From Candidatus Limnocylindrales bacterium (lineage in GTDB: Bacteria > Desulfobacterota > Binatia > UBA1149 > CAITLU01): a DNA stretch of 64,000 nucleotides. The notes beneath the pieces were generated by a model. It did no database searches and had not been told where the DNA came from. It saw only the letters and a list, made by a program, of their open reading frames with translations. Each line of letters starts with the position of its first letter. The first letter of the stretch is position 1. The DNA lies in NCBI GenBank assembly GCA_035571835.1, contig DATNBU010000039.1, positions 124,001-188,000 of the forward strand. Direction: 5' to 3'. Both the position numbers and the translations under genes were made by a program. Positions 14,584-32,609 of this stretch are shown piece by piece.

Positions 14584-14610
14584 GTTCCTGCGGACCATCG
14601 TCGACTTTGC

Positions 14611-15897: not shown

Positions 15898-15982
15898 CCG
15901 CGGCGCGCCGCTGCAGCTTTACCTCAGTTCATAATCGCGCCGGCGTGCCGGTTTGCGCTCGCTGGCGGGCCAGCTCGCTTGC

Positions 15983-17542
15983 TTACGTTCCGCTTCGCGT
16001 CGCCTGCGTTGCGCTTCGTATTTGCGCCGGCTCGACGTCGGTCGCAAGGTCGCGACAGCCGGTGTCGGTGCAGTCCGCGACCTGCCAGCCGCCGCCGAGC
16101 GCCTTGTACAGCGCCACGAGGTTGGTGGTGACCGAAGCTTCGCTTTCCGCGAGGCTCTCCTCGAAGACCAGACGCGAGCGCTCGGCCTCGAGCACCGTTT
16201 GAAAATCACTGAGTCCGTTCTGGTACTGGAGCCGCGCGAGGTCCTGGGCTTTGCTCGCGGCGAGCTCGGCTTCGCGCAGCCGGTCGCGACGCTGCTGCTC
16301 TTTGGCAAACGCGACCAGCGCGTTCTCGGCTTCCTCGCCGGCGCTGAGAACAGCCGCCTGCCAGTCGGCCAGCGCAGCGTCGGCTTCCGCCGAGCGCTGC
16401 TTGACGATGCCGCGAAGACGGCCCGCATCGAACAGGTTCCACCGCAGCGCGGGCCCGACCGCAAAGCCGCGCGCAGCAGCCGAATCCAGCGATGCGAAGT
16501 CGGAAGCGGCAACCGAGAACGTTCCCGTCAGCGTAAGCTTCGGATAGAGGTCGGCGGTTGCCACGCCGATCGCGGCGGTCGCGGCAGCAAGGCGCCGTTC
16601 GGCCGCAGCGACATCGGGCCGGCGCCTGAGCAGATCAACGGGTAGCCCGACCGCAACCGTCGCGGTCGGCACGGGAACCGGCTTGCGCACGGCGAGCTCT
16701 GCGTCGAGCGAGCCCGCGCTCGCGCCGAGCAGCACGGCGATGCGATTCCTCGCCGCCGCAAGGTCGATCTCGAGGGCCGGAATTCGCGAGCGCGTCTGCG
16801 CGAGATTGTACGTCGCCTGCTCGACGTCGAGCGCGCCGGCGAGTCCCGCCCGGTAGCGCCACTCGGCAATCTCGAGCGTATGTTTCTGGCTCTCCGCATT
16901 GTCGACGGCGATCGCGACGCGTGCCTGCAGCGAACGCATGTCGACGTAGTTGCGCGCGACTTCGGCAACGACACTGACGAGGACATTGCTGAGGTCGGCG
17001 CCCGCCGCTTCGAACTCGGCCGTGGCCTGCTCGCTGGAGCGCCGGATGCCGCCGAACAGGTCGATCTCCCACGACGAGTCGAAGCCTGCGGAGAAAGCAT
17101 CGCTCGACGAGCGGGTGCCGGTTGTCTGCCGGCGCTGGTAGCCGGCCTCGGTGTCGACCGTCGGAAAGAACGAAGCCCTCGCGACCTGCCTCGCTGCGCG
17201 CGCCTCCCGGATGCGTGCGATCGCGCGATGCACGTCGAGGTTGTTCTCGACTGCGCGCGCGACGAGACCATCGAGCTGCGGATCGCCGAGCGTCTGCCAC
17301 CACGCGCGATCGACGGCGAGCGATTCCTCACTCCCGATCTCGAGCCCGTTTTCCATCCGGGCACTCCAGCCTGCCGGCAGCGTCGTCCGGGCCGCCTTGT
17401 AATCGGGGCCGACGAGGCACGAAGCGCAAAGAAGCGAAGCGAGCAGCGCGGGCGCAAGGCGCACGGCGAGAGCAGCGCCGCGGCTGCGTACGGTGAACGC
17501 CGCGCGGCTAAGCACGGGGAGAGATGAGCGGCGCCTATTCAT
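15983..17542 (-). CDS. Outer-membrane efflux lipoprotein (NodT/TolC family)
   Basis: A 519-aa RND/ABC outer-membrane factor. The signal peptide ends with lipobox LCASC around residue 42, then LVGPDYKAA, typical of NodT-type lipoproteins. Two OEP repeats follow: long alpha-helical hairpins with LVARAVENNLDVHRAIARIREARA and the second-repeat LRRRPDVAAAERRLAAATAAIGVA. The product would form the outer-membrane duct for the adjacent MacA/ATPase/MacB-like exporter. Its start overlaps the end of the permease gene by 8 bp, so all four parts of a tripartite pump are in one operon. Confidence 0.93.
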   Translation of the reverse strand: MNRRRSSLPVLSRAAFTVRSRGAALAVRLAPALLASLLCASCLVGPDYKAARTTLPAGWSARMENGLEIGSEESLAVDRAWWQTLGDPQLDGLVARAVENNLDVHRAIARIREARAARQVARASFFPTVDTEAGYQRRQTTGTRSSSDAFSAGFDSSWEIDLFGGIRRSSEQATAEFEAAGADLSNVLVSVVAEVARNYVDMRSLQARVAIAVDNAESQKHTLEIAEWRYRAGLAGALDVEQATYNLAQTRSRIPALEIDLAAARNRIAVLLGASAGSLDAELAVRKPVPVPTATVAVGLPVDLLRRRPDVAAAERRLAAATAAIGVATADLYPKLTLTGTFSVAASDFASLDSAAARGFAVGPALRWNLFDAGRLRGIVKQRSAEADAALADWQAAVLSAGEEAENALVAFAKEQQRRDRLREAELAASKAQDLARLQYQNGLSDFQTVLEAERSRLVFEESLAESEASVTTNLVALYKALGGGWQVADCTDTGCRDLATDVEPAQIRSATQATRSGT

Positions 17543-18743
17543 GGCGAAGCGCTTCGATGGGATCGAGCCTGGCCGCCCGTCTCGCCGGAAAGAACCCGAA
17601 CACGACGCCGATCGTACTCGAGAACAGGAAGGCTACCGCGATGATTCCCGGATTGAGGATGAACGGCACGTCCATCGCGCGGCAGATCGCGACCGTCGCG
17701 ACCATCGCGACACCGACGCCAACGAGCCCACCGAGCGACGCGAGCACGACTGCCTCGACGAGGAACTGCGTCAGCACCTCGCCTTCGAGAGCGCCGATCG
17801 CAAGCCTGGTGCCGATCTCGCGCGTCCTCTCGGTTACCGACACCAGCATGATGTTCATGATGCCGATTCCGCCGACCAGCATGCTGACGGCGGCAACCGC
17901 TCCGAGCAGCATCGTCATGATCTGCGTCGTGCCCGTCAGCGCAGCCGAGATCTCCTTCATGTCGAGGACGGTGAAATCGTCTTCCTCGCCGGCGGAGATG
18001 TGCCGGCGCTCGCGCATGAGCAGAGTGATGTCGCGCTTGGCTTTTTCGGTCGACGCTTCCGACGAGACCGAAACCATGATCGCGTTGATGTCCTGCTTTC
18101 CTGTCAGCCGCCGCTGCACCGTGCGCAGCGGCATCAGCAGCGTATCGTCCTGGTCGGAGCCCATGCTCGACTGGCCCTTCGGCGCGAGCAGTCCGATGAC
18201 GCGGCACGAAATCTTGCCGACGCGGATGGTTTCGCCTACCGGCTCCTGTCCGCCGAAAAGCTCGCGGCGCACGGTCGCTCCGAGCAGGCAGACGGCTTTG
18301 CCGCCGCGCAGCTCGGCGTCGTTGAATGCCCGGCCGCTCGCAAGCGGCCACTGGCGCGCATCGAGAAACGCATCGGTCGTTCCGGTGACCCCGGTCGAAC
18401 GACTCGCGTTGCCGTAGACGATCGTCGCATCCTGCGACGCGGTCGGCACCACTACCCGCAGCGAGCTCACCTGATCGGTCACCGCGTCGACGTCGGCGAT
18501 CTCGAACGGCTTCGATGCTCCCGAGCCGCGGCCGGGACGCCGATGCTGGCCGGGAATCACGTAAAGGATGTTGCTGCCGAGGCTCGCGATGTCCGCGCGG
18601 ATCTTGGCCGTCGCACCGCCGCCGACGGTCACCATCGTGATCACCGCTGCGACGCCGATCACGATTCCGAGAACCGTCAGGAACGAGCGCAGCGCATTGC
18701 GACGGACCTCGCGAAGCGCAAGCACGAGCACGTCGCGCCACAT
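17535..18743 (-). CDS. MacB-type ABC transporter permease
   Basis: A 402-aa permease with the MacB architecture: TM1 at about 18-40 (LRSFLTVLGIVIGVAAVI), a large periplasmic MacB_PCD domain (about 45-260), then an FtsX domain with three TM segments including the GGIGIMNIMLVSVTERTREIG motif and the C-terminal FFPARRAARLDPIEALRHE. The ATPase is a separate gene immediately upstream, unlike E. coli MacB, which fuses both. The start overlaps the ATPase stop by one base (TGATG). Likely substrates are lipoproteins, peptides or macrolide-like molecules; the sequence does not say which. Confidence 0.93.
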   Translation of the reverse strand: MWRDVLVLALREVRRNALRSFLTVLGIVIGVAAVITMVTVGGGATAKIRADIASLGSNILYVIPGQHRRPGRGSGASKPFEIADVDAVTDQVSSLRVVVPTASQDATIVYGNASRSTGVTGTTDAFLDARQWPLASGRAFNDAELRGGKAVCLLGATVRRELFGGQEPVGETIRVGKISCRVIGLLAPKGQSSMGSDQDDTLLMPLRTVQRRLTGKQDINAIMVSVSSEASTEKAKRDITLLMRERRHISAGEEDDFTVLDMKEISAALTGTTQIMTMLLGAVAAVSMLVGGIGIMNIMLVSVTERTREIGTRLAIGALEGEVLTQFLVEAVVLASLGGLVGVGVAMVATVAICRAMDVPFILNPGIIAVAFLFSSTIGVVFGFFPARRAARLDPIEALRHE

Positions 18744-19480
18744 CAGCCGGTCACCTCATCGGACGCGACGTGGCCGTCGACGAAGTGAACCACGCGGCGC
18801 GCGTAGCGGGCCATCTCGCTTTCATGCGTGACCATCACGATCGTGATGCCGTGCTCGCGGTTGAAGCGGCAGAGCAGCTCCATGACCTCGACGCTGCGCG
18901 CGCTGTCCAGATTTCCCGTGGGTTCGTCGGCCAGAAGCAGCGCGGGCCCCGACACCACCGCGCGCGCGATCGCGACGCGCTGCTGCTGTCCGCCGGAGAG
19001 CTCGGTCGGCGTATGGCTTTCCCATCCGGTAAGACCGACGTCGGCCAGCGCGCGGCGCGCAATCGCGGCGCGCTCGGCCGGCGGAGTTCCGCGATACATC
19101 AGCGGCAGCTCCACGTTTTCGAGCGCCGACGTGCGCGGCAGCAGGTTGTAGCCCTGGAAGATGAACCCGAGCCATGAGCGCCGCAGCAAGGACCGCTGCC
19201 GGCGCGTAAGCGTCGTGATCTCGACGTCGCGAAAGCAGTAACTGCCCGCCGTCGGCGTGTCGAGGCATCCGAGGATGTTCATGCACGTCGATTTGCCCGA
19301 GCCGCTCGGTCCCATGACGGCGACGAACTCGCCTTCTGCGATATCGAGGTCGATGCCGCGCAGCGCATGCATCGCGGCCGCCCCGCTTCCGTAGACCTTG
19401 GTCACCCCGCGCAGCCGCACCAGCGAAGCGGGCTGTTGAAACACTGTGCTGCCGGGCGCCGGTCGCTGCGCGGTCGTCAT
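18743..19480 (-). CDS. ABC transporter ATPase (LolD/MacB-NBD type)
   Basis: A 245-aa nucleotide-binding subunit with Walker [10 protein letters not shown], the Q-loop [10 protein letters not shown], signature LSGGQQQR, Walker [13 protein letters not shown] and the H-loop MVTHE, all intact. It is closest in style to the LolD/MacB class. The ATG at 19480 overlaps the adaptor gene's stop by 4 bp; the open frame upstream of it overlaps the adaptor gene and is spurious. It energises the MacB-like permease encoded next. Confidence 0.95.
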
Positions 19481-20754
19481 TTCGCGCCCGAGACCGTCGC
19501 ATCGATGACCAGCGGCGTTCCGTCGTGCACTTCGCCTTCGACCACCTGCGTGCGGCGTCCGTCGGTAAGCCCGATCTGGATCGGCGTGGCCACCGGCTTT
19601 CCGTCTTCGAGGCGGTAGACGGTCCGCCGGTTGTCGTGCCGCGCCTGACTGGCCGGCGGCTCGGACCAGCGGCGGCCGAACGGCATCAGTTTCTGCAGCA
19701 GCCCGCGGTCGTCGCGTGCCTCGACCGGCGGAACGAAGCGCAGCGCTTCGTTCGGGACGACAAGCGCCGCGTCGATGGTCGCGATCACGATGTCGGCCGT
19801 CGCGGTCATCCCGGGACGCAGCGCGAGGTCGGCATTGGCGACTTCGAGGACGGCCTTGTACGTGACGACGCCGTTGACGGTTTCCGACGCATAGCGAAGC
19901 TGCGTGATGTGCGCCGGGAACGTCCGGTCCGGATACGCGTCGACCGTAAACGTCGCGGCCTGTCCTTCGCGGACCTGTCCGACGTCGGCTTCGTCGACGT
20001 CGACCTCGAGCTCCATCTGCGCAAGATCCTCGGCGAGCTGGAAGAGCTTCGGCGCCTGCAGCGACGCGGCGATGGTCTGGCCCGGCTCCACGTCGCGCGT
20101 CAGCACGACGCCGTCGATCGGCGAGCGGATTTCGGCCTTGGCGAGATTCGTCATGTCGAAATCGAGCTTGGCGCGCGCCTGGTCGATGGCGGCTTCGGCG
20201 CTGGCAACCTGTGCCCTCGCGCGCGCGAGCGTGGCCTTGGCCGTATCGAAATCCTGCTGCGACGGAACCCGTCCGCCGCTGGCCGTGCGCACGGCGCTCA
20301 TGCGGTTCATCTCGGCCTCGGATTCGACGACCGACGCGCGCCGCTCGTTGAGGGTTGCCTCCGCCGCCGCGAGCTCGGCTTTGGATTGCAGCGATTCGGC
20401 CGTGAGCTTGAGCGTATCCAGGCGCGCGAGCACCTGGCCTTTGGTGACGTGGTCGTTGTAGTCGACCTCGACGGTGTCGACGATGCCGGACAGCTCGCTT
20501 CCGACGTCGACTTCGTTGGTCGGCTGGAGCGTCCCGGTCGCGTTGACGGTTACGATCAGCCGGTCGGTTGTCGCGTTTTCCGTGCGATATTTGACGGTGC
20601 CGTCGCTGCCGCCGGCAAACGGGCGCCACAGGACGACCATGAGAATGACCAGCGCTCCGGCAGCAATCGCCAGCTGGCGCCTGCGCCGCGCGACCGCGAC
20701 CCGTTCGCTTTCCATGAGGGCCGCCACCTCACCCGGCAGGTTCGATTCGGCCAT
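19477..20754 (-). CDS. MacA-type periplasmic adaptor (HlyD/RND membrane fusion family)
   Basis: A 425-aa membrane-fusion protein. One N-terminal TM anchor (LAIAAGALVILMVVLW) is followed by the lipoyl half-motif GTLQPTNEVDVGSELSGIV, a long alpha-hairpin (about 110-215, rich in Ala/Glu/Gln) and the second half-motif KAEIRSPIDGVVLTRDVEPGQTI. Beta-barrel and membrane-proximal domains follow, with LRPGMTATADI. It bridges the MacB-like permease and the TolC-like duct in the same operon. It is the first gene of the four; about 97 bp separate it from the next cluster on the same strand. Confidence 0.94.
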   Translation of the reverse strand: MAESNLPGEVAALMESERVAVARRRRQLAIAAGALVILMVVLWRPFAGGSDGTVKYRTENATTDRLIVTVNATGTLQPTNEVDVGSELSGIVDTVEVDYNDHVTKGQVLARLDTLKLTAESLQSKAELAAAEATLNERRASVVESEAEMNRMSAVRTASGGRVPSQQDFDTAKATLARARAQVASAEAAIDQARAKLDFDMTNLAKAEIRSPIDGVVLTRDVEPGQTIAASLQAPKLFQLAEDLAQMELEVDVDEADVGQVREGQAATFTVDAYPDRTFPAHITQLRYASETVNGVVTYKAVLEVANADLALRPGMTATADIVIATIDAALVVPNEALRFVPPVEARDDRGLLQKLMPFGRRWSEPPASQARHDNRRTVYRLEDGKPVATPIQIGLTDGRRTQVVEGEVHDGTPLVIDATVSGAK

Positions 20755-20851
20755 GCGGCTGATTCAAGCGCAGGCAGCGCGCAACCGAAACTCGGAGTGC
20801 GATCGCACGGCATCGTTCCCGCAACGCCGGCTGCTGCCGTATGGCGCAGGA

Positions 20852-22603
20852 CTATGGCTGGCGGGCCGCATTCTTTTTGGCGCGGCGTTCGACCTTTCTG
20901 TTTGCCCTGCCGTAGTCCGGTGCGTTCGACTCTTTCCTGCTCGCCCGCTCTTCGTAGGCGGCCCTGGCGGACGGCGAAAGCTCCTTCAGCGCACGCTTCA
21001 TGCGCTCCTCATCGATGAGACGGCGCCGCTCGGCGATCTCCGCGAGCGGCCGGTCTTCATGCAGCTCCCAGATACTCACGCCGCGCAGTACGATGCGCTC
21101 TTCGGCGGTAAACGTCGTAAGCAGAAAGAAATCCTTCATGCTTTTGGCTTCCTCGTCCGCAAGGATCAGCCAGGCGCGACCCGGGACCACGGCCAGCCAG
21201 TCTCTCGCGCGCCTGTCCCAGTCGGGACACGCGCGCTCGCAGTACATCGCACGCGGCAGGCGGCCGTGACGGTAAAACTGAAACGCGTACGCCGTGCGCA
21301 GCGAAAGAATCACCCTGTCGTCCGGCGCGACGAGCGGCTCGAGCGCCGCAATCGCCTGGTCGACGTCCTGAAGAACGTCGCGGCGGAAAAATTCCATCCG
21401 GTTGGTGTGATACGGGACGATGCGCGTGCGCACCGAATCGTAACCCGAGTACAGCGCAAACGCGGCCACGACGGCCAGGGCTGCAGGCCGAAATCGCGGA
21501 CCAAGCGGCCGCGCCAACGTCCACAGCCCCTGCCCCGCCCATAGCAGCAGCGGTGGAAGTGCGAACAGCAGATGCCGGCCGTGCGCGATCAGGTAGTGAT
21601 TGGTGAGCGCAGCGACGATGCAGAGTGCAGCGGCAGCGAAGTACATCCACAGAAGGAACGAGCGCTGCGCGCGCGGCCACGTGAGCGCGCCGAGCGCGGC
21701 GATCGGAACGAGCACTTTCCACTGGCTCGAAAAGAAATACATCGTCGACGCGCGGAAGTATTCGGTAACTCCCTTGACGATCCGGCTCCCGAGCGACGGT
21801 CCACCGCCGAGCAGGTAAGGCGTCCAGTACGAAAGCAGGCGCGGGCTGGCGACCTGCGACGAGATCGTCAGGAAATACGCTGCCGCAAACGATGCCGTGA
21901 ACGCCGCGCTGCACAGAAACAGGTCGCGGCGAAGCTCCGGCGTCGCGCGCAGCGCCCATGCAAGCCAGCCCCACGCCAGCAGCGCCGCGATCGGAAAGAT
22001 GCATGCATAGCTGACCCACGGTGCAACGATGACGAGCACCATCAGCGCGATCCTTGCCCCGCGTTTCGGTGCGCTGCCGTCGAAGCCTGCCACCGCGAGC
22101 ATCGGGCAAGCGAGCGCCACGAAAAGATCGATGTCGTAGGACTTGAGCTCGCGGGAGTAATAGATGAGCGGCAAAAGGCCGGCCGCGAACCACGCGGCCA
22201 GCACACCGACCCACGGACGCGCCCCGAATGTCTTTGCCGCGCGTGACAGCAGCGGCACGAATGCAATGCCGACCAGCAGCGGAATGATCCGATAGCTGAC
22301 TTCGGGCGGCGCCGGCACGAGCGCCCGCGTCATGCGGACGAGCCACAGGAAGCCGAACGGCACCGCGCGGCCGTCGGCGATTGCACGGGACGGCTCGTCG
22401 ACAAGCATCGCTACCCACGCTTCGTCGCGCCAGAACGGTTTGGCGTCGAGGAACAGCACGCGTACGACGATCGCGAGCACGATTGCGACGGCCAGCGCAA
22501 TGCGGCGGCCGGTCAGCGACTGTGCGTCGGCTGTTTCGTCAGACGACGTCACTCGGCGGCGTCCCGGCACGACATCATTCTCGCAATTCCCATGCGCGCT
22601 CAC
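20852..22603 (-). CDS. GT-C/ArnT-like membrane glycosyltransferase (GT39 family style)
   Basis: A 583-aa polytopic membrane protein. After TM1 it has FLDAKPFWRDEAWVAML with adjacent acidic residues D60/E61, the hallmark first-loop acidic motif of polyprenyl-phosphate-sugar-dependent GT-C enzymes such as ArnT/PMT. About 10-12 TM segments follow, then a soluble C-terminal tail. It probably transfers a lipid-linked sugar on the periplasmic face; acceptor and sugar are unknown. Its ATG overlaps the stop of the Gfo/Idh gene (ATGA), linking it to the upstream sugar-modification genes. Confidence 0.75.
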   Translation of the reverse strand: MSAHGNCENDVVPGRRRVTSSDETADAQSLTGRRIALAVAIVLAIVVRVLFLDAKPFWRDEAWVAMLVDEPSRAIADGRAVPFGFLWLVRMTRALVPAPPEVSYRIIPLLVGIAFVPLLSRAAKTFGARPWVGVLAAWFAAGLLPLIYYSRELKSYDIDLFVALACPMLAVAGFDGSAPKRGARIALMVLVIVAPWVSYACIFPIAALLAWGWLAWALRATPELRRDLFLCSAAFTASFAAAYFLTISSQVASPRLLSYWTPYLLGGGPSLGSRIVKGVTEYFRASTMYFFSSQWKVLVPIAALGALTWPRAQRSFLLWMYFAAAALCIVAALTNHYLIAHGRHLLFALPPLLLWAGQGLWTLARPLGPRFRPAALAVVAAFALYSGYDSVRTRIVPYHTNRMEFFRRDVLQDVDQAIAALEPLVAPDDRVILSLRTAYAFQFYRHGRLPRAMYCERACPDWDRRARDWLAVVPGRAWLILADEEAKSMKDFFLLTTFTAEERIVLRGVSIWELHEDRPLAEIAERRRLIDEERMKRALKELSPSARAAYEERASRKESNAPDYGRANRKVERRAKKNAARQP

Positions 22604-23613
22604 GGATCCAGGCCGGCCATCGCGCGCAAGTTCGAGAGTACCCTCGTCACGCGCGCCGCATCGTCCGCCGAGCTCTTCGGCGGAGGACCGCCGGCCAGAT
22701 GCCCGAGGAACGCGCGCAGCTCACGCATCAGCGGAGCTTCGGTCCCGATCGCGAGTCTCGTTTCTACGCTGTCACCGCCGGAATTTCGATCCTCACCATC
22801 CGCGATCAGAAGATGATCGGACATCGCGCCGGGAAGCGTCGCGACCAGACCTTCGCACGTAAGCCGTATTTCGCGGCGAGTGACCGGTGACGCGCCGTGG
22901 ACCTCGATCACGGCGAGCGGCCTCGCGCCGAGCGTCGCCGTGAGGCCGACCGCCCTGCCCTCGCGGACCTCGGCGCTGGCAGCGACCGGCTCCGGAATCT
23001 CGCCGAGGATCTCGAGCGCGATCGCAAGATCGTGCGGCGCAAGCGTCCATACTGGATCGACATCGACCTGGTCGGGACTTTGGCCGATGCGGGTCGTCTC
23101 GAGAGATACGATCTCGCCGGCCGCCGAAGTACGGCCGAGGGCGCGCAGCGCTTCGATGCCCTGGTGGTAACGCCACTTGTCCATCACGAAGAGCCGGCCG
23201 CGGCCCTTTTCTGCGAGCATGTCGGCCTCGGCCACGGACAGTACGAACGGCTTCTCGCAGAAGACCGCAGCGCCGCGTTCGAGAGCTTCGCTCGCGAGCC
23301 TGGCGTGCGTGGCAGCCGGGGTCGAGATGATCACTCCGTCGGCCGCGCGGACTTCGTCGAAATGCCGGACGGCCTTGCGAGCGCCGTTCGCGCACGCATT
23401 CTCGCGAGCGGCCTCGTCGACGTCGACAACCGTGACGTCGCAGCCGAGCGCAACCAGATCGCGCAGGATGTGGCGACCCCACCTCCCGCAACCGACGAGT
23501 GCAATCGAAGGTGACGTTACTGGTGATGCCAGGGCCGGATCCTCGGCAGCAGGGCCTCGAGCGTTCCGAGCGCCGCATCGCGCTGCGACAGCTCGGGCGA
23601 CTCGACCGGCCAC
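22600..23613 (-). CDS. Gfo/Idh/MocA-family oxidoreductase
   Basis: An NAD(P)-dependent sugar-type oxidoreductase. SIALVGCGRWGRHILRDL is the Rossmann motif, and ISTPAATHARLASEALERGAAVFCEKPF carries the family EKP signature. A WTLAPHDLAIALEI segment supplies the usual catalytic His region. The start is uncertain. The longest frame opens with GTG at 23613 and overlaps the epimerase gene by 97 bp, and its first 30 or so residues look non-native. The Rossmann motif begins almost at the epimerase stop, with no ATG/GTG/TTG between, so a non-canonical (CTG or ATT) start is possible. It probably makes or oxidises an unusual nucleotide sugar. Confidence 0.85.
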   Translation of the reverse strand: MAGRVARAVAARCGARNARGPAAEDPALASPVTSPSIALVGCGRWGRHILRDLVALGCDVTVVDVDEAARENACANGARKAVRHFDEVRAADGVIISTPAATHARLASEALERGAAVFCEKPFVLSVAEADMLAEKGRGRLFVMDKWRYHQGIEALRALGRTSAAGEIVSLETTRIGQSPDQVDVDPVWTLAPHDLAIALEILGEIPEPVAASAEVREGRAVGLTATLGARPLAVIEVHGASPVTRREIRLTCEGLVATLPGAMSDHLLIADGEDRNSGGDSVETRLAIGTEAPLMRELRAFLGHLAGGPPPKSSADDAARVTRVLSNLRAMAGLDP

Positions 23614-24092
23614 GCGAGGTCGAGGCCCGGATCAGTCCAGTGAAAGCCGAGCTCGTCATCGATGTCGTAGTAATGCGACGTACCGAGCACGTATGTCGTC
23701 GGCTCGCACGCGTAGAACCCGTGCGCGACTCCGTGAGGAATCACCAGCGACGAAAGATTCTCACCGCTGAGCTCGAAGGCAGAGGGCATGCGCTCGGTCG
23801 GCGACCCGGAACGCAGGTCGCACAGCGCGACGAACAGGCGACCCTGGACCACGCAGAGGTAATCGTCGTGGCGAATGTGCACGTGCATGCCGCGCAGGAT
23901 TCCGGCGCGCGAGATGCAGGTGCTCCACTGAACCGGTGCGATGCCGGTCGGCCACGTCGCGCGAAAGATCTCGGCGACCATGCCGCGCTCGTCGGCATGG
24001 GCAGCGAGCCGCGTCAGCGTCGTATCCGCGGGTAGGCGTGGCGCTGCGCCGCCAGGTCGGTCGTCGGATAAGTTTACGGCCTCCTTCAGCAT
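23517..24092 (-). CDS. dTDP-4-dehydrorhamnose 3,5-epimerase-like cupin protein
   Basis: A 191-aa RmlC-like cupin. Characteristic segments: HADERGMVAEIFRATW, QWSTCISRAGILRGMHVH (equivalent of the RGLHxQ motif), DDYLCVVQGRLFVALCDLR, LVIPHGVAHGFYA (PxGxAHGF) and the C-terminal DPGLDLAWPV. The catalytic His of the RGMHVH motif is retained. The ATG at 24092 is preceded by GGAGG with 6-nt spacing and overlaps the GT2 gene by 7 bp. It acts on a nucleotide sugar, most likely a dTDP-4-keto-6-deoxyhexose or a relative; no rmlA/B/D are in the window. Confidence 0.88.
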   Translation of the reverse strand: MLKEAVNLSDDRPGGAAPRLPADTTLTRLAAHADERGMVAEIFRATWPTGIAPVQWSTCISRAGILRGMHVHIRHDDYLCVVQGRLFVALCDLRSGSPTERMPSAFELSGENLSSLVIPHGVAHGFYACEPTTYVLGTSHYYDIDDELGFHWTDPGLDLAWPVESPELSQRDAALGTLEALLPRIRPWHHQ

Positions 24093-24949
24093 GGCTTCCT
24101 CCAGCGCTCGATCTGGAACCTTACAAACTTCGGGCCCGATACGCGTGTGAACCGCAGCATGTCGAGCCACTGCCGCCGCCGCGCGGCAAGCGAGCGCCGG
24201 CCCGGCGCCGCTTGGCTGCGTACGAAGCTGCACCATGCCGGGTCGCCCAGCAATTCAAAAAATCGTGCCTGCGGCGGTTCGGCGAGGCCTTTGTAGAGGT
24301 GATCCCAGTCCTGGGCGTAAAAGCGCAGAATCGTGGGATGGTTGCGGTACTCGCCGGCAAGACGCGCCGTGCGACAGCGCTCATAAAGCTCGCGATCGCC
24401 GAAACGCATCAGGGCCTCGTTCCAGTAGCCGATCGTGTCGAGCACCGCGCGGCGAAGGACGACATTGGTCGCACCGACAAACCAGTTGTGCAGGAAGCCG
24501 CTCACCAGCGGCAGTCGCCAGTCGAACGCGAAGAAATGCGGGTCGAGCTCGCCGCTGCTTCGCACGTGCACGGAGCGCGTGACGATGTAGTCGAGCCTGC
24601 CGCCGTCGAGCGCCGTCATCGCGTGCTCGAGATGGTCCGGAAACCACAGGTCGTCGTCGCTCGCGTGGGTTACGTAATCGCTGCGGAGCGACCGCAGCAC
24701 GAGGTTGCGGTTTGCGTAACCGTAGCCGGGCGCTTTGGGGAACGGGTGGAAGATGACGCGCGGGTCGTCGAACGAGCGGACGACTTCTGCCGTCGCTTCG
24801 TCGCAGCCGTCGCCGACGACGTGGAGCTCGAGGTGCGGCCAGGTCTGGCGGAGCACGGAGCGGATGGAATAGGCGATGGTATGCGGGCGGGCGTGGGTCG
24901 GGAGGATGACCGCTACGGTTGGGTTGTGTGTCGTCGGGACGTCGCTCAA
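24086..24949 (-). CDS. Family 2 glycosyltransferase
   Basis: A 287-aa GT-A-fold glycosyltransferase. TVAVILPTHARPHTIAYSIRSVLRQTW is the GT2 opening motif, and THASDDDLWFPDHLE around residues 95-108 supplies the metal-binding DXD. There are no TM segments, so it is cytosolic or membrane-associated. It is the first gene of a four-gene minus-strand cluster (GT2, epimerase, oxidoreductase, GT-C) that together suggests synthesis and attachment of a modified deoxysugar. Donor and acceptor are unknown. Confidence 0.9.
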   Translation of the reverse strand: MSDVPTTHNPTVAVILPTHARPHTIAYSIRSVLRQTWPHLELHVVGDGCDEATAEVVRSFDDPRVIFHPFPKAPGYGYANRNLVLRSLRSDYVTHASDDDLWFPDHLEHAMTALDGGRLDYIVTRSVHVRSSGELDPHFFAFDWRLPLVSGFLHNWFVGATNVVLRRAVLDTIGYWNEALMRFGDRELYERCRTARLAGEYRNHPTILRFYAQDWDHLYKGLAEPPQARFFELLGDPAWCSFVRSQAAPGRRSLAARRRQWLDMLRFTRVSGPKFVRFQIERWRKPC

Positions 24950-25395
24950 TCCAGAATTCCTCTTCCAAAGCGCGACGTCTTCGACTCAGCGGACGCGCTT
25001 TCAGCGTTCGGTCTCTGTCGCATATTTTGGGTCATGGCAACGGGCAAGGGGCGCAGCAGCGACTGACCCTATGCAACGTTCCAACTGCAAGGCCGGACTC
25101 GCGTGCTCAGAGAGAAATCTGCGAGTCCCCATTCTAAGCGCCCATTTGGCCGCACGCCGCTGCGCGCGGTTTTGCCCCACGCCTTTCCCCGTCTCATCCA
25201 CACCGGCTATCGCGTCCGCCCAGTGAACGGGACTCACGACGTCGTCGACCGCCGGAAATCAATCCCCGTCGAAGATAAGACCTCTTCGGCTCGAACGGAA
25301 CGACTCCGTCTACGCCTGTGACGGCACTCACCCGAGCCCTTTTTGTCAGCCTGCGTAACTCTCTAGGCTGTCTTGCAGCAGTTATGCGGGCCGGT
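24950..25395. other. Non-coding interval before the IS remnant
   Basis: About 445 bp with no gene I can support. Short open frames exist on minus (for example 25001-25237), but they have no recognisable motif, no good ribosome-binding site and Arg-rich shadow-like composition. It probably contains the promoter of the GT2 cluster and may include decayed coding sequence. Confidence 0.5.
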
Positions 25396-25465
25396 TGACG
25401 TTCCCCCATCAGAAGCGACCGCTTGAAGAGCCAGTCCTCCGGGCTAAGCAGAGTCAGGAGAGGAC

Positions 25466-25732
25466 ATGCGAAAGAGCAGGTTCAGCGACGAACAGATCCT
25501 CCAGGCGATCAAGCGGGTCGATGCCGGCATGAGCGCGGCAGACGTCGGGCGGGAGCTCGGCGTCAATCAGTACACGATCTACCGCTGGAAGAAGAAGTAC
25601 GGCGGTCTCGATGTAAGCGACGCGCAGACGCTCAGGCAGCTCCAGGACGAGAACGGGCGGCTCAAGCGGATGGTCGCCGACCAGGCGCTCGACATCGACG
25701 CCCTCAAGGTTGCCCTCGGAAAAAATGTGTAA
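25466..25732 (+). CDS. IS3-family transposase OrfA (helix-turn-helix)
   Basis: An 88-aa OrfA. MRKSRFSDEQILQAIKRVDAG and a helix-turn-helix (SAADVGRELGVNQYTIYRWKKKYGG) are followed by a leucine-zipper-like coil (LRQLQDENGRLKRMVADQAL). It binds the terminal repeats and is normally fused to OrfB by frameshifting. The start is clear: AGGAGAGGAC immediately precedes ATG. The orfA reading frame is intact, but the element's partner is broken. Confidence 0.93.
   Translation: MRKSRFSDEQILQAIKRVDAGMSAADVGRELGVNQYTIYRWKKKYGGLDVSDAQTLRQLQDENGRLKRMVADQALDIDALKVALGKNV
25718..25726 (+). other. Programmed -1 frameshift site between orfA and orfB
   Basis: A run of six A (25720-25725) lies near the end of orfA, read GGA AAA AAT GTG TAA. 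Slipping back one base gives AAA AAA TGT GTA AGG, which enters the orfB frame (KKCVRPAARREAAAKI). This is the standard IS3-family way to make the OrfAB fusion. Confidence 0.75.
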
Positions 25733-26446
25733 GGCCGGCAGCGCGCCGAGAGGCGGCCGCGAAGATCGTCGCGGCCGGTTTCTCACAGAGGCGAGCTTGC
25801 CGGCTGGTCGGGCTGTGGCGCTCGACGTACCGACACGAAGCGAAGGGACTGGGCGACGAGGGGTTGCGTGCGCGCATGCGTGAGCTGGCGGCACAGAAGA
25901 CCCGGTACGGATTTCCGCGGCTGCTCGACCGGCTGCAACCACAAGCGTGTTTACCGCGTGTATCGCGAGGAAAACCTGCAGGTACGCAAGAGGAAGCGGA
26001 AGCGGCTGGCCCGCGCGCGGTGCAACCCGAGGCGGATCGCAACTAGGCCGAACGAGAGGTGGAGCATGGATTTCCTGAGTGACGTCGCCGGCGGGCGGCG
26101 GTTTCGGACTCTAAACGTGCTCGACGAGTGCACGAGAGAGGCGCTGGCCATGGAGGTCGACACGTCGCTGCCGGGTCAGCGTGTCGTGCGCGTACTCGAG
26201 CGGATCGTCGCCGAGCGTGGCAAGCCGGCCGAGATCGTCATGGACAACGGCCCGGAGTTTACGAGTCTGGCCATGGACCGCTGGGCGCACGAGAACGGCG
26301 TCGAGCTCCACTTCATTCAGCCCGGCAAGCCGACGCAGAATTGCTACATCGAGAGTTTCAACGGCAAATTTCGAGACGAGTGCCTGAACGAGAATTGGTT
26401 TGTAAACGTCGCCGACGCGCGACGTCGAATCGAGAACTACCGAAGG
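25720..26446 (+). pseudogene. IS3-family transposase OrfB (DDE integrase), frameshifted and truncated
   Basis: The first part, in the -1 frame relative to orfA, encodes GFSQRRACRLVGLWRSTYRHEAKG through TRYGFPRLLDRL. The continuation NHKRVYRVYREENLQVRKRKRKR is in another frame, so a frameshift, probably with loss of a few codons, lies around 25935-25945. The second part keeps the rve catalytic residues: Asp in WSMDFLSD, Asp in VMDNGPEF and Glu in YIESFNGKFRDECLN. After the ENYRR segment the sequence becomes unrelated, so the C-terminus is lost. An intact transposase is not expected. Confidence 0.85.
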
Positions 26447-26531
26447 GGTGTACCAGGAGTTACTGTTCCTTCGCGCTCCACGATGCGCAGCACCGTTCGC
26501 ATGGCCTCTCGTTCGGTTTTCGGTCCAACCC

Positions 26532-27032
26532 TCAATTGACGTCGCCTCTAGGAGCGTCCGAAGCTTTCCGCGAAACGGTCCCACAAAAGTAATTGGTCTT
26601 TCCGTTTGTTATCACTCTAAAGGGCGCAGCCGCATACACGAAAGATTTATCATGAACTCGAACTCGAAAGCTGTCACGGGTTGCGCCGGGCGTAATCTCG
26701 TATTTCTCGTCGGTGCTACTCCATGTGATGATAAGCTTTCCCGTTTCCTCCATGGGTGTCACATCGGACGTCCACCCCTCCGGCTGCGTTACTGCACTCG
26801 TTGAACGTTCGTCGTACGTCCAGCCCACGGGTTCGTTATCTAGCTCCGCGAGCTTCGATTCGCAGCGGTATCCCAGTTCGATTTTGACGATCGTTTCTAA
26901 ACTGGTGTTGCGGACGGTGTACTCGTACGTGGTGTTCCCGGAGTCGACTGTCTCGGAGACCTCGATATTCACAGTTGACGGAGCAGCGAATGCCTCGTTC
27001 GCAAACAGCATAATAAGAAACGCTAGAATCAT
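26532..27032 (-). CDS. Secreted protein with the domain shared by the upstream M15-like protein
   Basis: A 166-aa protein with a signal peptide (ILAFLIMLFANEAFA, cleavage after about residue 17) and a single beta-rich domain. Residues VSETVDSGNTTYEYTVRNTS, a GWTYDERS segment and PEGWTSDV align with the middle domain of the neighbouring 684-aa protein (GNTTYQYEVRN, NWTYANG, STGWTS), so the two are paralogous at domain level. The ATG at 27032 follows the upstream stop by 4 bp; an earlier in-frame start at 27077 would overlap it. Composition is less GC-rich than the core genes. No known function. Confidence 0.72.
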   Translation of the reverse strand: MILAFLIMLFANEAFAAPSTVNIEVSETVDSGNTTYEYTVRNTSLETIVKIELGYRCESKLAELDNEPVGWTYDERSTSAVTQPEGWTSDVTPMEETGKLIITWSSTDEKYEITPGATRDSFRVRVHDKSFVYAAAPFRVITNGKTNYFCGTVSRKASDAPRGDVN

Positions 27033-27036
27033 TTCG

Positions 27037-29091
27037 TCAATTCTGAGCTGGGATTGGGTTGAAGTGATGCGGGTCACGTACTGGTAGCGGACGATGCATC
27101 CCGCATTGTTGTGCTATTGTTGCAATCTGCGCGTCGGTTAGACCACTGATAGACAGATCGAATGCATTTCCACTCATATGATTGGACGTGGGTACCGGCC
27201 GATCAGATCGGCCCGGGAAATGATGCGAGAATTCGTTTTGTAGTTCGGTTCTTAGATCTTGACACTCCGGCGTGCGTAAATTCTCTAGCCGTTTCCACTT
27301 GTCCCAAACCTCCACAAGGTGGTTTTGATATTCGGCAGGTCGATATCCTGAAGTGACATGTGACGATCCGCCAGCGGCAGTAATGGCCGACTGCATGCAA
27401 GTTAAGTGGGCGGCGATATCTGGCGAGAGGCCGCTTAGATCTACCGGATCCTGACCGGCCATAGCCTGCGTCTCGAGGCTACTTGCGACACTGTCCGATA
27501 GCGGCGTAAGCGGAGACACCGGGCATGTGTCAAAGCGTAAATTGTAGATCTCGCCGACAGATTGATCGCCCCAGCCATCCTGCTCCACCGCGAAGAATAG
27601 GATTACGGTCTGATTTCTCCACGAGGGTTTCGTAAGTTTTTTCGACACTTCCACACGCCCGCTATCCCAATAATGCCCGTAGTCCTCACCCGGTACCGAT
27701 AGGTGGTCCACAACCGTTACTGTCGCTTCACCTGGTGGGCTCATGTAAACATCGAAATAGTCCCAAACGCCAGTATCGTAAGATTCCGATCGGTACTGGA
27801 AGTTAAGAATCCCACCGTCATTCACAGCGATCGTGACGGCGACCATGCTTAGGCCATCTGGTTCAACGCCAGGAAGCTCGGGCTTGTAGAACGGATCGTC
27901 GTAGGGATACTCCGTGTCCCACCGACCAATGTGCCATTCTTTGTCGCCCGAACCCGTTACATAACCTATTCCGACATCCGACCACTTGCTTACCGCAGGA
28001 GGAACCGGGTCATCAGCTGTTAACGCGACAGACATCCCGGTTTCCAGAGGTGGACATTCGGTTGCCACCTGCCCCGCGATCTCTCCCGCTACCTGAAAAC
28101 CGTCGCCGAGAATCGCATTAAAGTGACCGCTTGAATAGCTCGGGTCACCCGTCCCAGGGACGACGACTGTAAAACCGCTTTGCACACCTCCCGAAGGCAG
28201 ATCGCTTGCCGACGAGCTGCTATTCCAGGAAACGGCCATTGTCGGCGATTCTTCCTGTGAGACGGCGGTCGATGTCCATCCAGTAGAACCGAACATGCTA
28301 GTGGCTGGCGCACCATTGGCGTAGGTCCAATTGAAGGGAGGGACGTCGAGCTCAGTGATGCCATGGTAGTAGTCATAGCCGATTTCCAACCCCACGAGCG
28401 CTTCGCCTGAGCAATTTCGGACCTCATACTGATACGTGGTGTTGCCGTTAACGAAGGTCTCTGTGACTCCGACGGTGACCTCTGGCGGTGGCAGGCTGCC
28501 TTCAGTCGGCAGGAGTGCTGGCATGAGCTCGGTCAGAACGCGATCGATACAGTACCGTTCAAGATCTGGCAGAATGTCGGGCGACGTACAGCCGCCTGCG
28601 GTATCGAGAAGTCCCGCAACAGTTCCGTCGTGGAACTTAGCCTTGCACAGCTGTAGCGCGCCATTCGTCGTGATTGCCGAGGCGGCGCATCTCATCAAAT
28701 TTCTAGCTTGTTTTGCCACAATACGCATGGATCGGCCTGCGCAATCGTTGTCGCCGGAAATGTCATTGATCATCGTTGCAACACAATTGTCGAGATCGTC
28801 AAACAGTAAGCTATCTGCTGGGCAAATCGACGCAGTCTCTATTATCGTCGCGAGAAGATGTGCGATTGCTGCATCCAAACATTGCTGATCTACCTCAACG
28901 CCCTTACTGTACGCTTTTGAATGGCAGTACAGATACGACTTAAAAAATTGCGCTGTCGCTTTTCGGTTTTTTGTTGCGCATGACTCGATCCGAGTCACCG
29001 TCTGACTAAAGACGACAGTATGTGTCATTAAGACGGTACATGTCGTGAGCAGCATAGCGCAGACGATCTTTCGGTTTGATTTGACTTGCAT
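27037..29091 (-). CDS. Secreted multidomain protein with C-terminal M15-like peptidase domain
   Basis: A 684-aa protein: signal peptide (about 1-29); a Cys-rich helical region (about 38-190) made of two similar halves, each with a CxxK...C...C pattern; a beta-rich domain (about 203-345) homologous to the protein encoded just downstream; a second beta-rich, jelly-roll-like region (about 350-523); and a C-terminal domain (about 545-684). The last has TSGYRPAEYQNHL, SNHMSGNAFDLSI (His638, Asp645) and RDPHHF (His675 or His676), the zinc-ligand pattern of M15/VanY D-Ala-D-Ala peptidases. The usual catalytic Glu before the last His is not obvious. It could cut peptidoglycan peptides outside the cell. 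AT-richer than the core. Confidence 0.78.
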   Translation of the reverse strand: MQVKSNRKIVCAMLLTTCTVLMTHTVVFSQTVTRIESCATKNRKATAQFFKSYLYCHSKAYSKGVEVDQQCLDAAIAHLLATIIETASICPADSLLFDDLDNCVATMINDISGDNDCAGRSMRIVAKQARNLMRCAASAITTNGALQLCKAKFHDGTVAGLLDTAGGCTSPDILPDLERYCIDRVLTELMPALLPTEGSLPPPEVTVGVTETFVNGNTTYQYEVRNCSGEALVGLEIGYDYYHGITELDVPPFNWTYANGAPATSMFGSTGWTSTAVSQEESPTMAVSWNSSSSASDLPSGGVQSGFTVVVPGTGDPSYSSGHFNAILGDGFQVAGEIAGQVATECPPLETGMSVALTADDPVPPAVSKWSDVGIGYVTGSGDKEWHIGRWDTEYPYDDPFYKPELPGVEPDGLSMVAVTIAVNDGGILNFQYRSESYDTGVWDYFDVYMSPPGEATVTVVDHLSVPGEDYGHYWDSGRVEVSKKLTKPSWRNQTVILFFAVEQDGWGDQSVGEIYNLRFDTCPVSPLTPLSDSVASSLETQAMAGQDPVDLSGLSPDIAAHLTCMQSAITAAGGSSHVTSGYRPAEYQNHLVEVWDKWKRLENLRTPECQDLRTELQNEFSHHFPGRSDRPVPTSNHMSGNAFDLSISGLTDAQIATIAQQCGMHRPLPVRDPHHFNPIPAQN

Positions 29092-29140
29092 GGAAACCTC
29101 GCGGCTCGAGAAATCTTTCTACCGCCCGTTCCGGACTTTC

Positions 29141-30739
29141 TCAGCTACACGCAGAACAGGGCGAAAGGGCTAGGTTCTGTCGGATGGTCGGCGCAGGGTG
29201 GAACTGAGTAGCGACGCCCGACGTATCGGGGTTCGGCGGTGGGAGCGTGCACGTACCGGAGTTGCAGCCGCCCAGAACACATTGGGAGTTGACTGTGCAG
29301 GCTACGGTCGTGTTGTTGCTGCAATATCCGACTCTTTTAACGGCCGCTTGGAGGCTGATAGCGCCGCTGGAAGCCGATCCTGTAGTATCAAGCACTGCGC
29401 TCGCAGCGATTCGCAAAGAAGGCTGTGAGGTCGGCACCGTAGATTGCGATGCCTCGAGCGACATGGCGCCCCCGCGCGCTCCGAGGGCAGTTACTGTCGC
29501 ATGTGTGCTCGCAGTTCCCCGAACATCCAAAGTGCAGCCGGCGAGCAGAGCCAGCCCGCCATCGCCGTGGTCGTCTGCGGAAGAACCATCATGGCCATTG
29601 ACGTTGACGTTCGCCGACTCAATGAGCGTCAGCAATCGTCCAGAAACCAACCCGACAGTTCCCCCGTAACCTCCGGCTCGCCGAGAGCTCGCATCGATCG
29701 TTGAGGAGACAGTTATCGGCCCAGCAGCCTCCGCATCCAAATCACCACCATCGAACGACCCGCCGGTGACGTCTATTAGATCTTCGAGAACAATACCGCC
29801 GCACCCTGCGTTTAAGGTAATCTGACCACCGGGCGCATCCCCGCCCGTGTTTCCTATTCCGCCCGCGGCTGAGATCGGACCGCTAATGAGGATTTCGTCG
29901 CCGGCGTAGAGCTCCACAGTTCCGCCCCAACCCGAAATCCCGTGCCCTTCAACCGTGAGTTTTCCTTTCGGTCCCCCCGATACCGCATCGAAATTGACGG
30001 AAATCATTCCGGGCGTAGCAATCATGATATCGCCACCGGAGAACATGCGTCCGAACGCCCGGACCTCTGCGTTTATCGACACATTTTGGGCGGCTTGTAG
30101 CGCCAAGGACCCGCCGGAGTTTATGTTGGAATCTGTCCCACCATCCTGACCATTCAGATATAAATCGCTTCCTACCGTGACGGTGCCGCCACTGGAGAGA
30201 TAGATGTCCCCGCCGTTGGCGGCCTGCTGAACGCCTTGTGTATCGATCGCTGGCGAAGTACCGCTAACCGAGATCGCCCCCTGAGCATCCACTGCCACGA
30301 AGCTCCCGCCACCTGCATTTTGCGCTCGTAAGGTTCCAGAAAGGGTCAGAGACCCTGTCAGTTCGATGTCAATCCCCGTCAGCAACGTCTGACTGCTAGC
30401 GGCTTGAATTTTGTAGTTCTGGCCGATGGTCAGATTGCGTGCGAGTAAAGTCACGACTCCGTCGGCAACATTGACCTGACCAGAAACGCTAACATCTATA
30501 TCCGAACAGTTTAAGACCGAGCCTGCTATCACGTCGACCGAGCCAGCAGTGCAGCTGTGAGTGAGTGCAGCCGACGAAGGACAAAGGCCCGGCTCAGTAG
30601 CCGTGGAAACGCAGCGCGAAATTAACGGTACCGCTTCTGCTGATGCTGGAATCAACGCGATGAGCAGCAAAATGATACTGCTGAAATCTGAGAATTCCCG
30701 CTTCAGAAAAGCCCTCGATTTTAGCGGAGAGAGCCCCAT
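29141..30739 (-). CDS. Beta-helix-type surface protein with Cys-rich C-terminus
   Basis: About 532 aa. A signal-like segment (SSIILLLIALIPASAEA) ends near residue 37. Most of the protein is imperfect repeats of short Gly/Asn/Val-rich strands (GSLTLSGTLRAQNAGGG, GGDIYLSSGGTVTVGS, GGTVELYAGDEILISG), as in filamentous-haemagglutinin/beta-helix surface proteins. Near the C-terminus VGYCSNNTTVACTVNSQC begins a Cys-rich CTVxxxC-type module, then a Pro-rich tail. No autotransporter barrel is seen. The ATG at 30739 is chosen; the frame is open to 30796, and neither start has a clear ribosome-binding site. Same strand and composition as the two secreted proteins downstream. Confidence 0.72.
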   Translation of the reverse strand: MGLSPLKSRAFLKREFSDFSSIILLLIALIPASAEAVPLISRCVSTATEPGLCPSSAALTHSCTAGSVDVIAGSVLNCSDIDVSVSGQVNVADGVVTLLARNLTIGQNYKIQAASSQTLLTGIDIELTGSLTLSGTLRAQNAGGGSFVAVDAQGAISVSGTSPAIDTQGVQQAANGGDIYLSSGGTVTVGSDLYLNGQDGGTDSNINSGGSLALQAAQNVSINAEVRAFGRMFSGGDIMIATPGMISVNFDAVSGGPKGKLTVEGHGISGWGGTVELYAGDEILISGPISAAGGIGNTGGDAPGGQITLNAGCGGIVLEDLIDVTGGSFDGGDLDAEAAGPITVSSTIDASSRRAGGYGGTVGLVSGRLLTLIESANVNVNGHDGSSADDHGDGGLALLAGCTLDVRGTASTHATVTALGARGGAMSLEASQSTVPTSQPSLRIAASAVLDTTGSASSGAISLQAAVKRVGYCSNNTTVACTVNSQCVLGGCNSGTCTLPPPNPDTSGVATQFHPAPTIRQNLALSPCSACS

Positions 30740-30906
30740 TGCGACGTTGACAACACTCCGGCGTAAAGATGTAAGAAACGCAGCCGCGGCGACCATGGCC
30801 GGCGGAGCCGCTGGCGCTGCGACCTACGGGACCATCGGCGGCGTCGGAGTAACGGACACTGTGGGCCGGCAAGGCCTCGTGGTTTGGCCTGCATGGGCAT
30901 GCCTGG

Positions 30907-31551
30907 ATGAGTCCTCTTGCCGCGGTAAACGGCCAAACCGCCCTGCGGGAGAAGTTTGCGACCGAGCCCGCATTCAAGGCGACTACCGATATCCGCGATC
31001 CTGCCGGACCGCGTGCGAGCGCCGTCTTCTCCATTGCAGGGAGAGTCTTGCGGAGAGAGCGCAAGGTCTTCCACTACAAGGAAGCTGCGACGCTCGCGAC
31101 GAAAGCCCTTGAGAGTGGCAGTTCCAGTGAGGAAGGGTCCCGCTCCATCCGCGGTCACGCTTATATGCGGCTTGCTCGACTCGGCTACGTCTCGAAAATG
31201 TGGGAAGCGAAGGACGATTTCACACGGTCACTTGCGCTTCGCATCGAAAGGCACGGGGACGACTCACGAAGCGCCGGCGAAGGCATGGTCGACCTTGGCT
31301 TCTGTCTGATCGTGACAGAGAGTATCTCGCGAGGATACGCCCTCATGCAGGAGGGGCTCGAGCGGCTGCGCAAAGGCACAACGGCCGACCACCTCTCCTT
31401 TCTGATGCGCGGCCTGCGCCAGTTCGAGCTTGCGTCCAGGCTGACCGGGCACCGCTCGCGCGCTTCGGATGCCCGCCAGGAGTTGCGCGTTCTCGAAGAG
31501 AAGACGGAAGCCCTCGATCAATCGCAACAGTGGCGCCGCTCGTGGGAATGA
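30907..31551 (+). CDS. Hypothetical repeat-helical (TPR-like) protein
   Basis: A 214-aa protein with no recognised domain. Residues about 58-190 look like paired amphipathic helices of TPR type (AYMRLARLGYVSKMWEAKDDFTRSLALRIERHGDD, then GMVDLGFCLIVTESISRGYALMQEGLERL). There is no signal peptide or TM segment, so it is probably cytoplasmic. It is divergent from the beta-helix gene and may share its regulatory region (30740-30906). Start ATG at 30907 without a strong ribosome-binding site. GC-richer than the three secreted-protein genes, so it may belong to the native background. Confidence 0.55.
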   Translation: MSPLAAVNGQTALREKFATEPAFKATTDIRDPAGPRASAVFSIAGRVLRRERKVFHYKEAATLATKALESGSSSEEGSRSIRGHAYMRLARLGYVSKMWEAKDDFTRSLALRIERHGDDSRSAGEGMVDLGFCLIVTESISRGYALMQEGLERLRKGTTADHLSFLMRGLRQFELASRLTGHRSRASDARQELRVLEEKTEALDQSQQWRRSWE

Positions 31552-31793
31552 CAGAGGAGAGGTCTCATGGCCGGGTGACGTGAATCAGAGGCAATAGCGT
31601 CATCGAGCAGCATACCGACGTCCACTCGCCTGTCTGCGATTCCGGCGAGGGGGCGGTGTGCAATCGCAGCGGCATGTGGCGCACGGCGACACGTCAGACA
31701 CTCGCCGCGGGATGCGAGTTACTTAGCGAGGCCATTATTACGCTCACGAACCAACGATTGTGCGGTTAATACCCGATTCGAATCGCCGATTGA

Positions 31794-32609
31794 CTACCGC
31801 TGGCAGGCGGGACAATAAAAACTCGACCTCTGCCCCACGACCACCGCCTTGATCGGCGCGCCGCAGACGAAACAAGGCTTCCCCTCCCGATCGTACACGC
31901 AATGACTCCCCTGATACCCGCCCCGCCGTCCAATCCCGTCGAGAAAATCCGAAATCGTCGACCCCCGATGCTCGATCGCATCGCGAATCACGATCCGCGT
32001 CGCGTCGACGATTCTCGCGCATTCGTCGATCGTAATCTTTGACATCCGGCGCCTCGGCCGAACGCGCGCACGAAACAGAATCTCGTTGACGTAGATGTTG
32101 CCGAGGCCGGCGACGACGCGCTGGTCCATCAGCACGTCCTTGATCGTGCGGACGGTGCGGCGGCGCTGCTCGCTCAGGTATGCGGCGTGAAAAGCAGCCT
32201 CGTCGAGCGGCTCCGGTCCCATCAGCGACAGCAGCTTCGAAGCGCCCGGATCCTCGACCACGCACAGACCGAAGCGCCGCGGATCGTGAAAGACCAACGT
32301 GCCGCCTTCACGAAAGTGCGCGAGCACGTGGTCGTGCAGGCCGCCGGCCCTCGTTTCGTCCGAGAAATGGAGCCGCCCGCTCATCCCCATGTGAAAGAAC
32401 CAGGCGAGCCCGTCGTCGAGCTCGAAAAGCAGATACTTGCCGCGGCGTGAAGTCGCCGTGATGCGGCGGCCGACGAGCGCTGCGGCAAGCGACTCATCGA
32501 GCGCGTGACGAAGACGCGCAGTGCGAAGCTCGACGCGCGCCACGGTCCGGCCGACGACGACGGGATCGAGTGACACACGAATCGTCTCGACCTCAGGAAG
32601 CTCCGGCAC
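31794..32609 (-). CDS. mutM: Formamidopyrimidine-DNA glycosylase
   Basis: A 271-aa Fpg/MutM that excises 8-oxoguanine and Fapy lesions and nicks at the abasic site. The N-terminal PELPEVETIR gives the catalytic Pro (after Met removal) and Glu. Lys in the RGKYLLFEL loop, the H2TH region (DQRVVAGLGNIYVNEILF) and a C-terminal zinc finger with four Cys (CFVCG ... YCPAC) are intact. A GTG at 32609 is the start because Pro must follow directly; the long upstream open frame belongs to rsmA in another phase. It overlaps rsmA by 17 bp. Confidence 0.95.
   Translation of the reverse strand: MPELPEVETIRVSLDPVVVGRTVARVELRTARLRHALDESLAAALVGRRITATSRRGKYLLFELDDGLAWFFHMGMSGRLHFSDETRAGGLHDHVLAHFREGGTLVFHDPRRFGLCVVEDPGASKLLSLMGPEPLDEAAFHAAYLSEQRRRTVRTIKDVLMDQRVVAGLGNIYVNEILFRARVRPRRRMSKITIDECARIVDATRIVIRDAIEHRGSTISDFLDGIGRRGGYQGSHCVYDREGKPCFVCGAPIKAVVVGQRSSFYCPACQR

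Follow-up and report, generated by a model that had tools for sequence, protein, structure and literature searches.

Gene arrangement of the locus

The window analysed here, a stretch of 64,000 nucleotides, carries a cassette of three genes on the minus strand, which are transcribed in the order 551-aa ORF, 684-aa ORF and 166-aa ORF, with gaps of 49 and 4 bp. In the following, the 684-aa and 166-aa products are called the large and the small protein. The features of the locus are listed below, with the basis of each assignment in brackets; the upstream ORF, the Cys-rich module, the region 347-525 and the extra DNA behind mutM are additions to what an earlier note on this DNA had described.

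29141-30796, minus strand: 551-aa upstream ORF in the same direction (ORF; no family in the Pfam scan)
27037-29091, minus strand: 684-aa multi-domain ORF with a putative signal peptide and a C-terminal M15/VanY-type domain (ORF; PF02557 at residues 555-651)
28522-29001, minus strand: N-terminal Cys-rich module, residues ~31-190 of the large protein (matches in other genomes; alignment)
28054-28494, minus strand: copy of the shared domain within the 684-aa ORF, residues ~200-346 (BLASTP E 6e-21)
27517-28053, minus strand: acidic, Trp/Tyr-rich region, residues ~347-525 of the large protein (composition; no Pfam match)
27040-27450, minus strand: M15/VanY-type domain, residues ~548-684 of the large protein (PF02557; H638, D645, D673-P-H-H676)
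26532-27032, minus strand: 166-aa ORF with a putative signal peptide and the single shared domain (ORF, BLASTP, AlphaFold2)
25466-26446, plus strand: IS3-type insertion sequence remnant (PF01527, PF00665, PF13683)
12677-31796: ~19.1 kb between mutM and the conserved neighbourhood of the relatives, containing the cassette (comparison with four relatives)

The small ORF encodes 166 aa when read from an ATG 4 bp past the stop codon of the large gene, which confirms the spacing given in an earlier note on this DNA. With an alternative GTG 15 codons upstream of this ATG as the start, the product would have 181 aa and the two genes would overlap. Judged by eye, the ribosome-binding context of the small gene is weak. 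We regard it as supported that the large and the small gene are arranged as if co-expressed, and a promoter and terminator scan of the region, which scored no better than shuffles, is silent on an operon. The 551-aa ORF has a signal-peptide-like stretch and the look of a repetitive beta-helix (both by eye), and its true start is probably located further in. Two partial paralogues of this ORF are found elsewhere in the same genome, with 41% and 30% identity over ~110 aa.

The small protein repeats a domain of the large protein

Comparison of the small with the large protein by BLASTP resulted in a match of 76 bits (E 6e-21) with 33% identity over 123 aa. When the putative signal peptide is left off, the small protein aligns to residues ~200-346 of the large one, and the landmarks GNTTYxYxVRN, WTY (positions 71 and 255) and GWTS (positions 86 and 271) are present in both copies. 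This bears out the earlier claim that the same domain forms the middle of the 684-aa protein. ORF and BLASTP also agree with the description of the 166-aa protein as one signal peptide, recognised by eye, followed by one domain. In this putative signal peptide, a strong hydrophobic core and an AFA/A site are combined with an n-region that lacks positive charge (by eye). Each domain copy contains two cysteines, at non-corresponding positions (57 and 150 in the small, 227 and 346 in the large protein), and these pairs could form alternative disulphides.

At E values up to 10 and with HMMER filters on, Pfam gave no match to either domain copy, and the small protein gave only weak matches in PHROGs (best E 0.12). 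NCBIfam returned no match to the large or the small protein, and sequence searches of the PDB no meaningful match. Of the profile search proposed in the earlier note, the part concerning the peptidase end of the large protein was successful (PF02557, see below), and the part concerning the shared domain ended without a Pfam match.

Modular build of the large protein

Residues 1-29 of the large protein have the look of a Sec signal peptide (by eye). With the whole protein as a query, 11 of 98 related genomes, its own among them, gave a match, and in the ten others it was the N-terminal Cys-rich module (residues ~31-190) that matched. This module is located near the N-terminus of dissimilar secreted-looking proteins of the class. 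One of the bearers, encoded in the same genome as the cassette, is a YHYH protein according to Pfam; the others include, by eye, proteins with NHL-like repeats, a hydrolase, a propeller-like protein and proteins with Cys-rich repeats. Pfam contains no family for the copy in the large protein, and a scan of ten members of the module yielded one weak match (E 0.022). As a side observation, the module heads many different secreted-looking proteins of the class (loci L003, L004 and L007-L017).

The C-terminal end was assigned by profile. PF02557 (VanY) matched the whole large protein with 25.1 bits at a curated cut-off of 25, in an alignment that spans only profile positions 4-79 of 132 (about half) and ends before the last histidine. 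Residues 346-684 alone scored 27 bits, and a separate profile search of the genome gave 27.9 bits. In M15 peptidases, zinc is bound by His-x6-Asp and by a further, C-terminal His, and three positions before the latter lies an acidic residue. H638, D645 and D673-P-H-H676 are present in the large protein, along with SGYR, SxHxxGxAxD and DxxH stretches; by comparison with the M15 motifs, the former residues are the putative zinc ligands and the putative catalytic acid, the third ligand being placed by eye. Assignment of the large protein to the M15 (VanY) family, which the earlier note had proposed for this end, is right but borderline on the profile score. A single-sequence structure model of residues 346-684 (pLDDT 36, pTM 0.26) was set aside as unusable.

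VanY matches were obtained in 5 of 29 genomes, including the own one. By eye, the M15/VanY proteins of the four other genomes are of a different build, one of them seemingly fused to a cupin, and none of the accessory domains of the large protein was seen in them. Literature searches on M15 enzymes with binding modules did not find a pair consisting of such an enzyme and a free domain.

Predicted fold of the shared domain

A structure prediction of the shared domain, likewise suggested in the earlier note, was carried out with AlphaFold2 for the small protein. Starting from a two-row alignment, the model reached a pLDDT of 67 and a pTM of 0.66 and consists mostly of strands; residues 59-75, which contain the WTY motif, are below a pLDDT of 50. 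Foldseek matched the model to a Nocardia Ig-like structure (3esm, E 2.2e-4), a GH20 enzyme (6ezr, 4.4e-4) and a variant of a C. fimi cellulose-binding domain (6e-4). The top VIA match was YcnI (Z 11.0, 2.4 A over 105 residues), followed by 3esm (10.1) and Clostridium cohesin-like modules (9.6); the GH20 enzyme scored 9.2 with its N-terminal part, and the C. fimi domain 9.0. Taken together, the model points with modest confidence to an Ig-like beta-sandwich. Because the matches spread over unrelated families and the model is based on a two-row alignment, the prediction indicates the fold class only and names no ligand.

CBM2, CBM3 and cohesin domains may resemble the model in their beta-sandwich class (Z ~7 to 9.6, among many unrelated beta-sandwich families, for a model of pLDDT 67), whereas neither domain copy gave a Pfam match at E values up to 10. 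The copper-binding domain YcnI/DUF1775 is the best VIA match to the model of the small protein, and YcnI is described as binding copper via its N-terminal histidine (PMC8424229). In contrast, the small protein is expected to begin with Ala/Pro after cleavage (site by eye), and the copy in the large protein is internal, so that neither has such a histidine.

Age of the duplication

The identity between the two domain copies at codon positions 1, 2 and 3 was 0.46, 0.60 and 0.39 over 110 aligned core codons, in comparison to 0.28, 0.26 and 0.27 in a control of 500 shuffled pairings. Outside Trp and Met, the third base was kept in 15 of 36 identical residues. We read this as an old duplication, in which residues are conserved and third bases are close to random, and reject a recent one on the same codon comparison. 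Since residues are kept, synonymous sites are nearly scrambled and the frame is open, the small ORF is probably maintained at the protein level.

Search for relatives

The following genome sets overlap. The small protein had no convincing relative in 97 related genomes beyond its own. With a profile of the shared domain, 394 sampled genomes of the phylum beyond the own one yielded no convincing relative and four weak matches (E 0.014-0.043), and 147 genomes of the class beyond the own one yielded no match at E values up to 0.01. Residues 346-684 of the large protein gave no match in 296 genomes of the phylum, and residues 189-684 gave only two weak matches (E 0.004 and 0.008) in 147 genomes of the class, in both cases beyond the own genome. 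The weak phylum matches L020, L022 and L023 map to or extend across ORFs resembling a kinase, an ATPase and sugar-transfer enzymes (by eye) and were rejected as chance. Both class matches were dismissed as well: one is located in a recombinase-like ORF (by eye), and the other has no M15-like translation.

At L021 (1378-1899, minus strand), in another genome of the phylum, a 174-aa ORF shares 34% identity over 38 aa with the small protein, at an E of 4e-5 that stems from a single comparison of a pair preselected by the search. The ORF has no signal-peptide look, and Pfam gave only a weak C97 match (E 0.072). On the sequence comparison we do not count it as a convincing relative of the small protein, yet it may be a weak lead.

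A short-peptide scan of named genome contigs returned 63 stretches for the shared domain and 11 for the large protein, of which none was confirmed in either case. In viral contigs, none of the 125 stretches for the shared domain was confirmed, and the M15 part and the whole large protein returned no stretch. Scans of this kind rely on short peptides matched almost exactly, so that remote relatives escape them. Searching both proteins by tblastn against plasmids and phages gave no match. In the sets searched, convincing copies of the domain were thus confined to one genome.

Genomic setting

The earlier note had described the block as richer in AT than the core, which is correct: GC is 0.55 over 26448-30800 vs mostly 0.64-0.71 elsewhere in the window (2-kb steps), where a second dip, to 0.60, occurs at 7-10 kb. 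The three cassette ORFs have GC3 values of 0.60, 0.55 and 0.59, compared with a mean of 0.77 (sd 0.08) and lowest values of 0.47, 0.53 and 0.59 for 47 other ORFs of the window, a set chosen mechanically that includes wrong-frame ORFs. Four ORFs of the own genome, which carry the N-terminal module or are the partial paralogues of the 551-aa ORF, have GC3 values of 0.74-0.85 (stop-to-stop frames; one of the four matched only at E 0.029). In view of these counterparts, the low GC3 of the cassette is not a trait of these kinds of proteins. Elsewhere in the window, a 234-aa ORF at 7945-8646 (minus strand) with a signal-peptide-like start (by eye) has a GC3 of 0.585 and no Pfam match.

The broken insertion sequence reported beside the block is indeed there. 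It is what remains of an IS3-type element: HTH_Tnp_1 and rve match, the second ORF is in pieces and the right end is not recognisable. Its PF13683 (rve_3) match covers 51 of 67 positions and stops near 26446, ~85 bp beyond the stop codon of the small gene; truncation of the small gene by the insertion sequence was rejected on this basis.

The distance from mutM to the orthologue of the gene at ~12.7 kb is 82, 109, 514 and 6134 bp in four relatives, and 19.1 kb in the window. The mutM genes of these relatives are 68-76% identical; six relatives have mutM, of which four were compared and G003 and G004 were left out. Nine ORFs from 17.5-30.8 kb, including the three of the cassette, had no match in 18-19 kb from each of the four relatives, and may lie elsewhere in these genomes. 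A distant match to a glycosyltransferase was observed in two of five relatives. Most simply, this lineage would have gained DNA here, at a spot where one relative also acquired some, and a loss in several relatives would be a less simple account. The spot behind mutM is therefore probably a site of DNA gain. The part of the extra DNA at 12677-24949 has a GC of 0.67, and the extra DNA also carries a DUF445 gene and sugar genes. Within it, an outer-membrane efflux protein, a MacB-type permease, an ABC ATPase and an HlyD-type adaptor are encoded in one run (15989-20754).

A proposed secreted wall hydrolase with a separate copy of one module

The reading that we favour, and to which we give an even chance, is that of a secreted wall hydrolase with binding modules and a co-secreted, old copy of one of these modules directed at the same ligand. 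The pair would belong, with the upstream ORF, to a run of three genes for secreted proteins that lies in lineage-specific DNA behind mutM. The large protein would be exported, probably by Sec, and held at a surface or polymer by the Cys-rich module, the Ig-like domain and the region 347-525, while the C-terminal zinc-peptidase domain would cleave short peptides, with peptidoglycan as the most likely substrate. The small protein would represent an old, diverged and separately exported copy of the Ig-like module, which most likely binds the same ligand as the module of the enzyme and acts beside it. What the data show directly are the shared domain, the gene order, the M15 profile match, the divergence of the two copies with frame and residues conserved, and the additional DNA in comparison with four relatives, whereas we infer export, peptidoglycan as the substrate, ligand binding and joint action. 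A binding role of the small protein is plausible, and the idea of a docking or binding subunit, raised in the earlier note, is compatible with our findings. Overall, the large protein seems to be a modular secreted enzyme of an ordinary type, and what is unusual is its stand-alone partner, whose domain has no match in the libraries searched.

It is less probable, and in our view unlikely, that the small protein assembles with the large one via the shared domain into a two-component enzyme with raised avidity. The same domain in both proteins and the distance of 4 bp between the ORFs would fit such an assembly, and phage endolysins with extra chains of the cell-wall-binding domain provide a precedent. 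LysIME-EF1 is described as a tetramer of one full-length chain and three extra binding domains (PMC7098653), LysP7951 as a 1:5 complex (PMC9430671), and CTP1L as another endolysin with an extra cell-wall-binding-domain chain (PMC4777826). As presented in these sources, they resemble the pair in combining a peptidoglycan-type hydrolase with a free copy of its non-catalytic domain. In contrast, both endolysin chains originate from one gene by means of an internal start, and the extra chain is identical to the domain of the enzyme, whereas here the small protein is encoded by a separate downstream ORF and the domains have diverged to 33% identity. An identical interface is unlikely for this reason. 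Quite improbable is a chromosomal two-component secreted hydrolase whose binding domain was duplicated into its own gene and diverged, resulting in an obligate or avidity-tuned pair and founding a new beta-sandwich binding family.

We assign a similarly small probability to the small gene being a functionless by-product of a domain duplication beside a decaying insertion sequence. Its position next to the IS remnant, the weak ribosome-binding context, the uncharged n-region of the signal peptide and the occurrence of a convincing domain copy in one genome only among the sets searched are in agreement with a leftover. However, 166 codons have stayed open during divergence to 33% identity, with the second codon positions best kept (0.60 vs 0.26 shuffled), and a dead copy of such age is expected to contain stops.

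The earlier suggestion of an immunity protein or decoy, which would protect its producer either by masking the ligand or by inhibiting the enzyme, found no support and is the most doubtful of the readings. It would be consistent with it that the gene immediately after that of the enzyme encodes a small product with a putative signal peptide, that the shared domain could compete for the ligand of the enzyme and that the peptidase end has a weak endolysin match in PHROGs (E 0.022). However, what the small protein copies is an accessory domain and not a counterpart that would fit the active site. The occurrence of the N-terminal module on unlike secreted-looking proteins of the class lets the large protein look like an ordinary secreted enzyme, and the Pfam and PHROGs scans list no toxin-delivery domain.

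Bacterial wall hydrolases usually have their binding modules on the same chain. If our reading of a hydrolase with a co-secreted copy of its own module is true, bacteria would have, in the separately encoded, diverged module, a simple parallel to the multi-chain endolysins of phages, and the shared domain would be a new candidate binding domain.
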